This document shows, piece by piece, positions 6,841 through 44,379 of a stretch of DNA of 64,000 nucleotides. The position numbers and the translations under genes were made by a program. Source of the stretch: Spiroplasma clarkii (GTDB lineage: Bacteria; Bacillota_I; Bacilli_A; Mycoplasmatales; Mycoplasmataceae); NCBI RefSeq assembly GCF_002795265.1, contig NZ_CP024870.1, positions 1,178,001-1,242,000 on the forward strand, written 5' to 3'. The first letter of the stretch is position 1. Every line of letters starts with the position of its first letter. Under the pieces are notes generated by a model, which saw only the letters and a program-made list of their open reading frames with translations, was not told the origin of the DNA and did not search any database.

Positions 6841-7596
6841 ATGTTAAACATAATTATTTTTAATTATCAAAGACTTATCCAAAGATGATATTTTATTATT
6901 GCTTTTATTGGTTATGCAACTTTTTGAATTATGCCCTGATTTGGAGGTTTTGATTTTATAACTACAGTTAAAACTTCTAGTAGTTTTGTACAAAACTTTA
7001 TAATGAGCAGCAACTTAATAATAATTTTAATGACATCATTCTATTTATATTTTGATTACAAGTCTGGTCTTTGAAAACTATTATTTACTTCAAAAGCTAG
7101 TAAATTAAAAATAATCTTAGGTTATTTTTTGAGTGCCCTAATCTTAAGTCAATGCATTCTTTTAATTATCTTGTTACTGGTTAGTGCTATTTATGCAAAA
7201 ACAATCTCAGATTACGGAATTTGATTTAACATCATTTTTGACTTCTGGGTTTTACCAACACTAACAACCTTGGTTTTTATTTTAATTGCTTGTTGTATTT
7301 TTTGTTATTTTCCCAAAGATATGTCTCTTGAAGTCTTCATCTTGGGTTTAATCTCAATTATTATAAGTGCTCTGCGCATGACGGTTTGAACACTAACACT
7401 TGAAAAGTGGATGGTATGGAGTTTGATGGTTTTACCACTACTAAATCTTTTCTTACTAGAAAGCCACTATAATTATTTTTGAGTTCCTGTAATAGTTAAC
7501 ACATGCTTTGGTTTACTGGTATTATTAGTTATTTTTTTAAAAACTAAGGAGGTGAAAAAGAATGAAACTTTCAATGTTAAGGTTAATATCAAGTAA
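6841..7596 (+). CDS. ABC-2 type exporter permease subunit (hypothetical)
   Basis: The 251-residue membrane protein is invisible under the standard code because of many TGA (Trp) codons. Six hydrophobic segments are visible, starting after a short N-terminal helix (RLIQRWYFIIAFIGYATFW). It is typical of permeases that pair with a separately encoded ATPase. The downstream gene, which overlaps it by 35 bases, carries ABC ATPase motifs, so the pair forms one exporter locus. The substrate is unknown. A strong promoter and Shine-Dalgarno sequence precede it. Since the ATPase is broken, this permease is probably non-functional or on its way to decay, although its own frame is intact. Confidence 0.6.
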
Positions 7597-8219
7597 TTTT
7601 ACTTTAGAAGTTACTAATCTAGTTATCAACCCCTTTGATGTCATTGCAATTCTCGGTGCCAATGGTTCCAGGAAAAACTACATTTATTGAAACTTTAACT
7701 AATCCTTTTTCACCAAAAAGGGATTTTACCTGTGATACAAATTTTACCTATAATTTACTACCTCAAATTGCAAACTATGGAAATGTTAAATTAATAAACT
7801 TAGTAACATTGCTTACCAAACTTAATCAAGCAAACCTTGATATCAACAACTTATTCACAAAATATAGTTTACAAGATTTTAAAACACAATATTTTTCAAA
7901 ACTGTCACCAGGACAACAACAAAGATTTAAGTTTATGCTTTTAGAATTGTTTGATAAAAATAATCTTTTGATATTATATGAAGTTTTTAATTTTATTGAT
8001 TTAGATTGAAAGGAAAAAATTCATGCTCAACTTGAAAATTGAAAAACAGCTTATTCAGCAATTTTATTAGTAAGTCATGACTTAGAATTCATAAAAAGTT
8101 TTTGTAATCGTGTTTTAGTATTTGATGCAGGAAAAATTGTAATTGATAGTAGCAACTTTGATGATGAACTCTTCAAAGATATTAATGATGTGATCAAAAA
8201 AACTAATGATTTTGAATAA
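7562..8219 (+). pseudogene. ABC transporter ATP-binding subunit, frameshifted and with a damaged Walker B
   Basis: From the ATG at 7562 the frame runs to the Walker A site, where an extra C at 7668-7669 shifts it. Deleting one C restores GANGSGKTTFIETL. The rest then reads open to 8219, with the signature SPGQQQRF and an H-loop LLVSHDLEF. Walker B reads LLILYEVF, so the Asp of the usual LLLDE is replaced by Tyr. The product is short for the family, at about 218 residues after repair. Two independent lesions argue for genuine decay over a sequencing error. It overlaps the end of the upstream permease gene. Confidence 0.8.
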
Positions 8220-40766: not shown

Positions 40767-41117
40767 CTATGCCTCATTAGTTTCAGCTGGTTTTGCTGCT
40801 GCAGGTTTTGCAGCAGCACCTGTTGAGATTTTATCAATTTTAACTTTTGTGTATGGTTGTCTGTGACCATAGACTTTGTTAACATTTTTCTTTGGATGGT
40901 ATCTTACCACTCGTAATTTCTTTTCTTTACCTTGTTTTAGGACAGTTCCTTCAACTTTAGCACCCTTTACAAAAGGAGCACCAATTTCTTTATCAGTGGC
41001 AATAACTTCAGAAAAAGTGATTTTTTTACCTTCCTCAATTAATGTTTTTTCGATAAAAATTTCATCCCCTGGTTGTACTTTAATTTGTTTACCACCAGTT
41101 TTAATAATTGCATACAT
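40767..41117 (-). CDS. rplU: 50S ribosomal protein L21
   Basis: The 116-residue protein begins MYAIIKTGGKQIKVQPGDE, a signature of L21. KVEGTVLKQGKEKKLRVVRY and the basic block KKNVNKVYGHRQPYTKVKI follow. The C-terminus carries an Ala/Lys/Pro-rich tail (AAAKPAAAKPAE), echoing the tail of S16 in this genome. It leads the rplU-prp-rpmA operon and is preceded by a structured leader. Confidence 0.96.
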   Translation of the reverse strand: MYAIIKTGGKQIKVQPGDEIFIEKTLIEEGKKITFSEVIATDKEIGAPFVKGAKVEGTVLKQGKEKKLRVVRYHPKKNVNKVYGHRQPYTKVKIDKISTGAAAKPAAAKPAETNEA

Positions 41118-41215
41118 CTATTCTTTCCTCCAGTCTAGACTCGCCTTGTATGTGAGTGAAGTTTATTCACTACTTGTAGACACACAAAAGAGCGGTTGAA
41201 ACTAGCAACCTAAAT
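41118..41215 (-). promoter_or_regulatory. L21 leader (ribosomal protein autoregulatory element)
   Basis: On the minus strand the leader contains CAACCGCTC, TGTGTGTCTACAAG and a hairpin GTGAATAAACTTCAC. It then contains ACTCACATACAAGG and AGTCTAGACTGG before the GGAGG site. The order of these blocks resembles the L21 leader upstream of rplU in low-GC Gram-positives. It would sense excess L21 or another operon product. Confidence 0.55.
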
Positions 41216-41280: not shown

Positions 41281-41332
41281 AAAAACCCCATTGTTTACTT
41301 GGAAATAATCACTCCTTACTAACAATGAGGTT
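41281..41332 (-). terminator. Terminator-like hairpin after the GG-leader peptide gene
   Basis: AACCCCATTGTT (41284-41295) pairs with AACAATGAGGTT (41321-41332), one mismatch, with a 25-nt loop. On the minus strand GGGG is followed by T5. Confidence 0.55.
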
Positions 41333-41397: not shown

Positions 41398-41676
41398 TTA
41401 AAAAAATGATTTAGCAGCAAAATCTTGATTTGCAGCAGCACTTTTAGCTTGAATTGAACGATCATATTTAACTGAATTGTCACCAATTTTAACATCTAGT
41501 TTGTCATAATCATTTGGGTGTTGAAAAAGAAAAACTGTTGTTGCTACTGTTGATATGATGTCATTAATGAATGAAAAACCAACTTTTAAAATGTCACCAA
41601 TACCATTTAGCAATGCACCAGAAACTCCAGCGCCACCAACAACTTCACATTTTTCTTCCATGCTTAGTTCTCTGAT
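41398..41676 (-). CDS. Double-glycine leader peptide, bacteriocin/pheromone-like, apparent AUC start
   Basis: The 92-residue product, read from an ATC at 41676, would be (I/M)RELSMEEKCEVVGG followed by AGVSGALLNGIGDILKVGFS. This matches GG-type leaders (ELSxEE...VxGG) cut by peptidase-containing ABC exporters. The mature part is about 77 residues: a glycine/alanine-rich hydrophobic segment, then a polar tail ending QDFAAKSFF. GGAGG lies 7 bases before the ATC. The only canonical alternatives are a downstream ATG (shortening the leader to MEEKCEVVGG, 22 bases from the GGAGG) and a TTG overlapping the GGAGG. It follows rsmI by 35 bases on the same strand. No exporter or immunity gene lies next to it. 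Confidence 0.7.
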   Translation of the reverse strand: MRELSMEEKCEVVGGAGVSGALLNGIGDILKVGFSFINDIISTVATTVFLFQHPNDYDKLDVKIGDNSVKYDRSIQAKSAAANQDFAAKSFF

Positions 41677-41711
41677 AAAATCACCTCCCAATTACTTAAT
41701 CGAATGATAAT

Positions 41712-42599
41712 TTATGTTTTTGCCAAAAAGTTTAAGCTTTTTTGATAAAGCTCATTCTTATTTAAACCATATTTTTTTGCAATTTCTTTTACTGCTTCTT
41801 TTCTTGAAACTCCTTGCAAAATTAACTCATCTAGTAATTTCAAATAATCAACACTTGTTGCTGCATTGCTTTGGGGCTGGAGGTTTTTATCTAAAACTAC
41901 ACAAAACTCACCTTTTTGAACAAATTCTGGTGAATTAATATAAGCACTTACTTCTTTTAAATCACCAACAATGATTTCTTCATTGAGTTTAGTAATCTCT
42001 CGCACTACTGCCACTTGACAGTTTTTTGCAAACAAGGCACTTAAAATATTAATTGTAGTTTGAATGCGATGCACTGATTCATAAAAAATAACTAATTTAT
42101 CTGTCAGGTTAGTCAAGTTTAAAAATTGGTTCTTTAATTGTTGAGGTTTCTTATCTAAAAAACCTAGAAATTCAAGTCCTTTTGCTTCAAAACCTGACAT
42201 TATTTGAGCATGTATAAATGCTGGACCACAATTAATTGGACAAATCGCAAAATTTATTTCTGAGTTCATCAAACAATTAAGTACTTTGGCTCCTGGATCA
42301 CTAACACAAGGGACCCCTGCATCTGTGATAATTGCAACATCTTTACCTTGTTTTAAATCAAAACTTAACTCAGAGACCTTTTCTAACTCATTAAATTTAT
42401 GTAAAGAAACTAGATGGTTCTTGATTTGAAAGTGATCTAGCAATTTTTTACTAGTTCTGGTGTCTTCACAATAGATTTTAGTCACAGTTTTTAAAGTTTC
42501 TACAGCTCTTGGTGAAAAGTCACTTAAATTCCCGATTGGCGTTCCAACAACATAAATTATTGGGCTTTTGTCCTTAAATGTTTTTTTAATTTGTAGCAT
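41712..42599 (-). CDS. rsmI: 16S rRNA (cytidine1402-2'-O)-methyltransferase
   Basis: It methylates the P-site region of 16S rRNA. The 295-residue tetrapyrrole-methylase-fold protein has the N-terminal motif YVVGTPIGNLSDFSPRA. EDTRTSKKLLDHF, IITDAGVPCVSDPGAKV and FYESVHRI are the family blocks. The ATG at 42599 is supported by GGAGG 8 bases upstream; an in-frame GTG at 42608 overlaps that site. It follows greA, from which it is separated by a terminator hairpin. Confidence 0.95.
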   Translation of the reverse strand: MLQIKKTFKDKSPIIYVVGTPIGNLSDFSPRAVETLKTVTKIYCEDTRTSKKLLDHFQIKNHLVSLHKFNELEKVSELSFDLKQGKDVAIITDAGVPCVSDPGAKVLNCLMNSEINFAICPINCGPAFIHAQIMSGFEAKGLEFLGFLDKKPQQLKNQFLNLTNLTDKLVIFYESVHRIQTTINILSALFAKNCQVAVVREITKLNEEIIVGDLKEVSAYINSPEFVQKGEFCVVLDKNLQPQSNAATSVDYLKLLDELILQGVSRKEAVKEIAKKYGLNKNELYQKSLNFLAKT

Positions 42600-42616
42600 T
42601 ATTTGCACCTCCGAAT

Positions 42617-43234: not shown

Positions 43235-44092
43235 TTACAACTTTATTCTCACATAATTGTAAAATTTTTGATATAAACTTGCATTTAGCTGATACTCAGC
43301 AAGTCCTTTATAACAGTAATTTTCTTTTAAGCATTCTCTTTTAAAAACTGATCAAAACCCTTCAATCCAACCATTATCTGTAGACTTGGCTATTCTTGAC
43401 ATGCTTGGAATCAAATTAAAGTACATTAGCATCAACTTATAATTATATGCTTTAAATTCAGAACCATTATCTGAGTGTATTACACTGTTTGGCAAGAAGA
43501 CACCAAATTCATCAGTCATTTTTAGAAATGATTTTTCTACAAGTTGATTCCCTTTATTTTTTTCTGTTACTAAACCAAAGATTTTTTTCATTTTAATATG
43601 ATAAAAACCACAGGTATAGTATCTTTCACCATTGAATTCCTTTTCTGTTATGTCTACTGAAAAAACATCACCATACTTATCAAAATTTTCAGGATCAGTT
43701 AACAAGTTTGGGTATTTACCAACCTTTTCAGGTTTTGCTACCTTATTTTTTCATTTCACATGATTATTGGTGGAGATGCTTCTCATTTTAAAGTATCTCA
43801 ATATTTTTTTATGTGATGACTTAGCTATCCCCTTAGTGAGCAAATCTATTGCAATTCTTTTACAACCATAGGTTTTTCCTGAATCAATAAAGCTCTGCTC
43901 AATATTTAAATAAAAATCATGATCATAATATCTTACCCTAGGTTTCCCTTGCTTCACTCATTCATAGTATGTACTTTTTGGAAGTTGAGCAATTTTTAAT
44001 AAGCCATTTTTAGGTATTTTGAATTCATTGTAGATAAATTCCTCAACAACTAAGCATTTAATTATATTAAGCTCCCATTTAACTACTTTTTT
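43235..44092 (-). CDS. IS3 transposase OrfB (integrase core, made by -1 frameshifting)
   Basis: About 285 codons in the -1 frame relative to orfA, with several TGA Trp codons. The catalytic DDE residues can be seen: Asp in VFSVDITEKEF, Asp in VIHSDNGSEF, and Glu in DNGWIEGFWSVFKRE, with the usual D-35-E spacing. The start is not an independent ATG; the likely product is an OrfAB fusion arising at the A8G run (44087-44094 on the plus strand read as T). It ends about 32 bases inside the left end of the element. Confidence 0.8.
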
Positions 44093-44379
44093 TTACTTAT
44101 CAGGGCCTCAATTCTTTTTCACATTTCATTTCTAGTTTCTAATTCGGCATTTTTCTTCTTCAGTTCTTTAACTTCATTTCTTAAAATTATTAGTTCTTCT
44201 TTATCAGCTGAATTTGGTGCCCCAAGACCATCAATTCCAGATTGATCATACTTTTTACACCAATTTAAAAGTGTTTGATCTGAGATGCCATAACTTTTAA
44301 CAAAATTCTTGGCCTTTGTCTTGCTCTCTCTAAATTTTAAAATTATTTTTTCTTTTTGCTTTGCTGAGTAATGTCCCAT
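44083..44379 (-). CDS. IS3 transposase OrfA (helix-turn-helix)
   Basis: The 98-residue DNA-binding protein reads MGHYSAKQKEKIILKFRESK, then a helix-turn-helix with YGISDQTLLNWCKKYDQSG. A leucine-zipper-like coiled coil follows (LRNEVKELKKKNAELETRNEM). A TGA at 44119 is read as Trp. It stops with TAG directly after the AAAAAAAAG slippery run. -1 slipping there joins it to OrfB. Confidence 0.85.

Follow-up and report, generated by a model that had tools for sequence, protein, structure and literature searches.

A short frame on the minus strand of the genome of the wall-less Spiroplasma clarkii probably encodes a small peptide whose translation would begin at an AUC codon and which would be exported by a C39-peptidase ATP-binding cassette (ABC) exporter, serving as a signal or a membrane-associated peptide and not as a weapon. 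The frame lies in a window of 64,000 nucleotides (the whole stretch analysed; G000:C1:1178001-1242000) of a genome assembled as a single contig of 1,560,007 bases. Its elements, in window coordinates, are as follows.

41398-41676 (-): whole frame including the stop; preceded by GGGAGGTGATTTT and then ATC, it reads IRELSMEEKCEVVGG/AGVSGALLNGIGDILKVGFSFINDIISTVATTVFLFQHPNDYDKLDVKIGDNSVKYDRSIQAKSAAANQDFAAKSFF
41401..41676 (-): predicted precursor peptide, 92 codons from ATC, stop TAA at 41398-41400; assigned from the sequence and from homologs in the family
41632..41676 (-): 15-codon double-glycine leader, (M)RELSMEEKCEVVGG, of the same length in all aligned homologs
41401..41631 (-): predicted mature peptide, 77 aa, with cleavage placed from the leader
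41674..41676 (-): putative AUC start codon, aligned with the ATG of most homologs and with AUA, AUU or AUC of others
41680..41688 (-): extended Shine-Dalgarno (SD) sequence GGAGGTGAT, 3 nt 5' of the start, matching the complement of the 16S tail over 9 bases

A GGAGG at 41684-41688 (-) is followed, after a 7-base spacer, by ATC at 41674-41676. The in-frame ATG lies 22 bases past the GGAGG, and a TTG overlaps it. This arrangement and the double-glycine (GG) leader had been picked out in a sequence-only reading of the window, and both sequence and coordinates were found to be as described there. From the start codon to its last residue, the leader comprised 15 codons in 47/47 aligned homologs, and the start position is therefore fixed. 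The start codons of these homologs were ATG (35), GTG (3), TTG (1) and AUC, AUA or AUU (8), the last group consisting of the window peptide, L006, L008, L019, L025, L026, L031 and L037. L008, L019, L031 and L037 have no ATG, GTG or TTG anywhere from the upstream in-frame stop to the GG, and a non-canonical codon would be the only possible start of their leader. Most related genomes carry ATG at the very codon occupied by AUC in the window, with the leader conserved, and not a conserved start at a downstream ATG. The AUC very probably serves as a genuine non-canonical start, one of the options weighed in the sequence-only reading; its use in cells is something that we infer.

Starts with AUC, AUA or AUU were found in 0 of approximately 165 neighbour genes at the same loci (homologs versus neighbour genes, Fisher p 3.6e-6 without kinship correction). 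On a tree of GreA, RsmI, RplU and RpmA, the presence of such a start changed at least five times, with G003 (AUU start) lying outside this tree. The sequence GGTGAT stood directly 5' of the start in 7/8 of the AUC/AUA/AUU homologs versus 1/35 of the ATG homologs. Across the whole window genome, approximately 400 genes with SD-placed starts yielded only two other plausible non-canonical candidates. One of them is a 673-aa frame resembling the symporter GltS (G000:C1:1433045, -), with ATA after GGAGG and no ATG for 178 codons, and is a possible second AUA-start gene. A non-AUG start was also looked for in infC of the same genome, which was found to begin with ATG after an SD of its own.

A point against the AUC is that an in-frame TTG five codons upstream (41689-41691) could in principle initiate in the window, giving a 20-residue leader in which AUC is an ordinary codon. 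This TTG is a canonical start codon, but it overlaps the SD itself and is served by no other, and with the 15-codon leader of every homolog and the four homologs devoid of any canonical start before the GG it is a very improbable start. A variant initiator tRNA was rejected as a cause, the initiator tRNA having the normal three G:C pairs. A sequencing error at the start is unlikely, since eight homologs from several lineages have such starts, four of them with no alternative. In Staphylococcus aureus, ribosome profiling showed that AUA and AUU starts pair with an extended SD, and in reporters in poor medium the output from such starts was approximately 10% of that from AUG (PMC13009471). The window peptide resembles infC, cvfC1 and ccpN of S. 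aureus (PMC13009471) and sigR of Streptomyces, with its GTC start (PMC5472188), in joining a non-AUG start to unusually long SD pairing; unlike in those genes, the start codon of the peptide family varies between species, with several independent changes.

A single-sequence search (E up to 1) detected homologs of the peptide in 50 of the 60 genomes of its family, among them 20/20 of the genus, and a profile search added some that the single sequence had missed. Between related homolog pairs, the ratio of nonsynonymous to synonymous substitution rates (dN/dS) was 0.08 to 0.43, one near-identical pair being uninformative, and the gene is under purifying selection. The sequence-only reading had also considered a decaying gene, which is ruled out by these ratios together with the family-wide conservation. 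Nor is the frame a chance one, because it is conserved across the family with a constant leader length and the dN/dS values given, and because it was the sole credible short open reading frame (ORF) with a GG leader in the 1.56-Mb genome in a scan combining a regular expression with an SD requirement. The order greA-rsmI-peptide-rplU-ysxB-rpmA was retained in most homolog-bearing genomes. In the Mesoplasma group the peptide adjoins rplU, and in genus g8, whose large genomes we take to be Citri-like, it was usually near greA where present, having been lost in most of the genus. Second or tandem short GG-leader ORFs were seen beside the first at L115 (G016), L239 (G022), L129 and L132; more than one cargo peptide may thus be present in some genomes.

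A search of the window genome for C39-peptidase domains returned one match (E 1.5e-21). It belongs to a 652-aa protein (G000:C1:631030-632988) with C39, membrane and ATPase domains, which aligned full length to PCAT1 (4ry2; E 6e-34) and has kept the Cys/His/Asp catalytic residues. The sequence-only reading had reported no exporter or immunity gene adjacent to the peptide; this is correct for the locus, but the genome does hold an exporter, approximately 590 kb away and unlinked. The exporter gene is a solitary one, flanked by rimP on one side and on the other by a 134-aa ORF and then ybeY. That ORF (G000:C1:633025-633429), which comes directly after the exporter, has a hydrophobic N-terminal stretch and matched no family above cut-off; it could be an accessory protein.

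At leader residues 14 and 15, the 47 homologs had GG (38, including the window peptide), AG (7), EV (1) or GV (1). With GG at -2/-1, Leu at -12, Glu at -8 and Val at -4, the window leader resembles those of peptides processed by peptidase-containing ABC transporters (PCATs), such as PCAT1/CtA and ComA/ComC, and the exporter shares with PCAT1-type exporters the layout of C39, transmembrane and nucleotide-binding domains along its full length as well as the Cys/His/Asp residues. The system differs from classic PCAT systems in its unlinked exporter, its short leader (15 aa) and a residue at -7 that is not hydrophobic, and from most PCAT cargo in a longer mature part with no net positive charge and no match to a curated family. 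Among 58 scorable genomes of the family, exporter and peptide were both intact in 46, both lost or broken in 9, and only one of the two was intact in 3; this count omits G010 (no RplU match; this region seems to be absent) and G006 (whose rplU lies at the edge of a contig). In G012 the exporter was broken and the GG had become EV, and in G015 the exporter was missing and the GG had become GV. Six independent pairs could be drawn on the tree, and exporter and peptide changed together in four of them and in opposite directions in none. The peptide is very probably the cargo of the genome's single C39 exporter.

Several observations weigh against this assignment. The window leader has Lys at -7, a position that is hydrophobic in classic leaders and that is Leu or Met in only some of the homologs. 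G004 and G022 retain a GG peptide though their exporter is broken, and G045 has an intact exporter together with a peptide (L036, 1492-1674) frameshifted after approximately 35 codons. Corrected for kinship, the link between exporter and peptide rests on the six pairs, with p 0.125.

Under the account that we favor, translation would begin at the AUC, positioned by the extended SD pairing, which would compensate for a poor start codon at a yield probably below that of AUG. The C39 domain of the only peptidase-containing ABC exporter would recognize and cut the 15-residue GG leader, releasing the 77-residue mature peptide to the membrane or beyond; cleavage and export are again steps that we infer. 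The mature peptide would most likely serve as a low-dose autocrine signal or a membrane-associated peptide rather than as a weapon directed at competitors. Its predicted net charge is -1, with a Gly-rich, hydrophobic N-terminal part and a polar C-terminal part; among the homologs, the charge of the mature peptide ranged from -10 to +4 and its length was mostly 73 to 116 aa. No reliable match to the peptide was found in Pfam, NCBIfam or solved structures. The AlphaFold (AF2) model, with a mean predicted local distance difference test score (pLDDT) of 58, was too poor for a fold search and displays a long hydrophobic Gly-rich helix.

C39 exporters were found in 262/298 genomes of the order Mycoplasmatales, and families f7 and f3 contained more weakly matching relatives of the peptide, whose leader is of the same kind. 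One f7 relative (L131) again lies beside rplU, and those of f3 include the NCBIfam "MPN313 family protein" (NF045747), represented by MPN313 of Mycoplasma pneumoniae. Members of this family at L245 (G070:C1:266087-266356) and across L244-L263 have a clear 15-residue GG leader, which suggests that they are C39-exporter cargo; the gene at L245 (G070) stands beside mraZ/mraW. We read MG220 (RrlA) as the member of this family in Mycoplasma genitalium, and an mraZ/mraW neighbourhood is as expected for that gene. A review gives MG220, under the name RrlA, as required for sigma-20 activation and recombination (PMC9262362). The window peptide and the members of the MPN313 family are all small proteins of mollicutes that share the 15-residue GG leader; they differ in the mature part and in locus (mraZ for MPN313). 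The NF045747 model (cut-off 100 bits) did not match the window peptide; relatives from f1 and f7 scored 13 to 16 bits and one from f3 scored 34.9. Orthology of the Spiroplasma peptides with the MPN313 family is not claimed, because the similarity is mainly in the leader.

The term "bacteriocin-like" in the sequence-only reading raised the possibility of a class II bacteriocin, secreted in the gut of the insect to act on rival bacteria. The GG leader and C39 exporter would suit such a peptide, and a few homologs matched TIGR03949, TIGR01847 and PF10439 weakly, at the level of the leader and with E no better than 1.5e-4. Against it, the window peptide matched no curated model above cut-off, and no immunity gene adjoins either the peptide (rsmI, rplU) or the exporter (rimP; the 134-aa ORF and ybeY). 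The mature peptides are not cationic, at the charges given above, and are mostly 73 to 116 aa long. Nearly all species have the gene at a fixed locus next to genes for ribosomal proteins, where it is single-copy and inherited vertically. A bacteriocin is accordingly unlikely, and of the "signalling or antibacterial" candidate that the sequence-only reading had proposed, the antibacterial half was not borne out and the signalling half may still hold. A secreted signal or an envelope peptide appears likelier.

A signal could act in a feed-forward loop over recombination or gene transfer, like the streptococcal competence pheromones, its dose being determined by the start codon. The GG leader shared with the MPN313 family of f3 genomes, the need for MG220 (RrlA) in sigma-20 activation and recombination (PMC9262362) and the suitability of low-yield start codons for a signal all point this way, while the homology between the Spiroplasma peptide and MPN313 lies mostly in the leader; this function is possible, short of being probable. 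To much the same degree, the peptide may be a constitutive part of the envelope or membrane that reaches its place through the exporter, as MAM of Faecalibacterium may do. MAM, which has a GG leader and has been put forward as the cargo of a PCAT, is no bacteriocin but the main envelope protein (PMC12184118); the likeness drawn here is one of description, and the MAM gene, unlike that of the window peptide, adjoins its PCAT. The near-universal presence of the peptide, the lack of a nearby regulator and the hydrophobic Gly-rich helix of the poor AF2 model agree with such a component. Start codons with approximately 10% of AUG output, as AUA and AUU had in the S. aureus reporters, would be odd for an abundant structural protein, and the loss from most of the Citri-like genus g8 also speaks against it. 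The signal and envelope readings are about equal, and the choice between them is weakly supported, which detracts from the favored account. A wider proposal is rather doubtful: that one conserved GG-leader family constitutes the dose-controlled pheromone of the Mycoplasmatales C39 exporters, governing an alternative sigma factor and recombination in some lineages (RrlA/MG220), with the dose tuned during evolution by switching between AUG and AUC, AUA or AUU.

The peptide frame begins 35 bases after rsmI, and both a hairpin and an L21 leader RNA separate it from rplU.

41712..42608 (-): rsmI, conserved upstream neighbour
41284..41332 (-): terminator-like hairpin with a T-rich tail, between peptide and rplU (-17.4 kcal/mol, z -2.7)
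41127..41207 (-): predicted ribosomal protein L21 leader (RF00559), opening the downstream unit (36.4 bits, gathering 36)
40767..41117 (-): rplU, conserved downstream neighbour

Elsewhere in the window, transposase pieces with rve and HTH_Tnp_1 domains lie between greA and a MATE-like gene (43235-44379, -). At 6841-8219 (+) are two adjoining ABC-exporter-like frames, the ATPase part of which matches only the second half of Pfam ABC_tran and which are possibly truncated.

In the JCVI-syn3A model (eLife 2019), no double-glycine peptide was found for the C39 exporter 0401 (PMC6609329). The same missing-cargo puzzle was cited there for other mycoplasmas, and 0401 was given another role, tentatively in lipoyl-peptide uptake (PMC6609329). 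Given a conserved candidate cargo in genera related to these, the puzzle of the "orphan" mollicute C39 exporters becomes directly testable. The small size of the peptide and its non-AUG starts suggest why gene finders could miss it. The switching of the start codon between AUG and AUC, AUA or AUU, together with SD length, provides a natural experiment on initiation fidelity.
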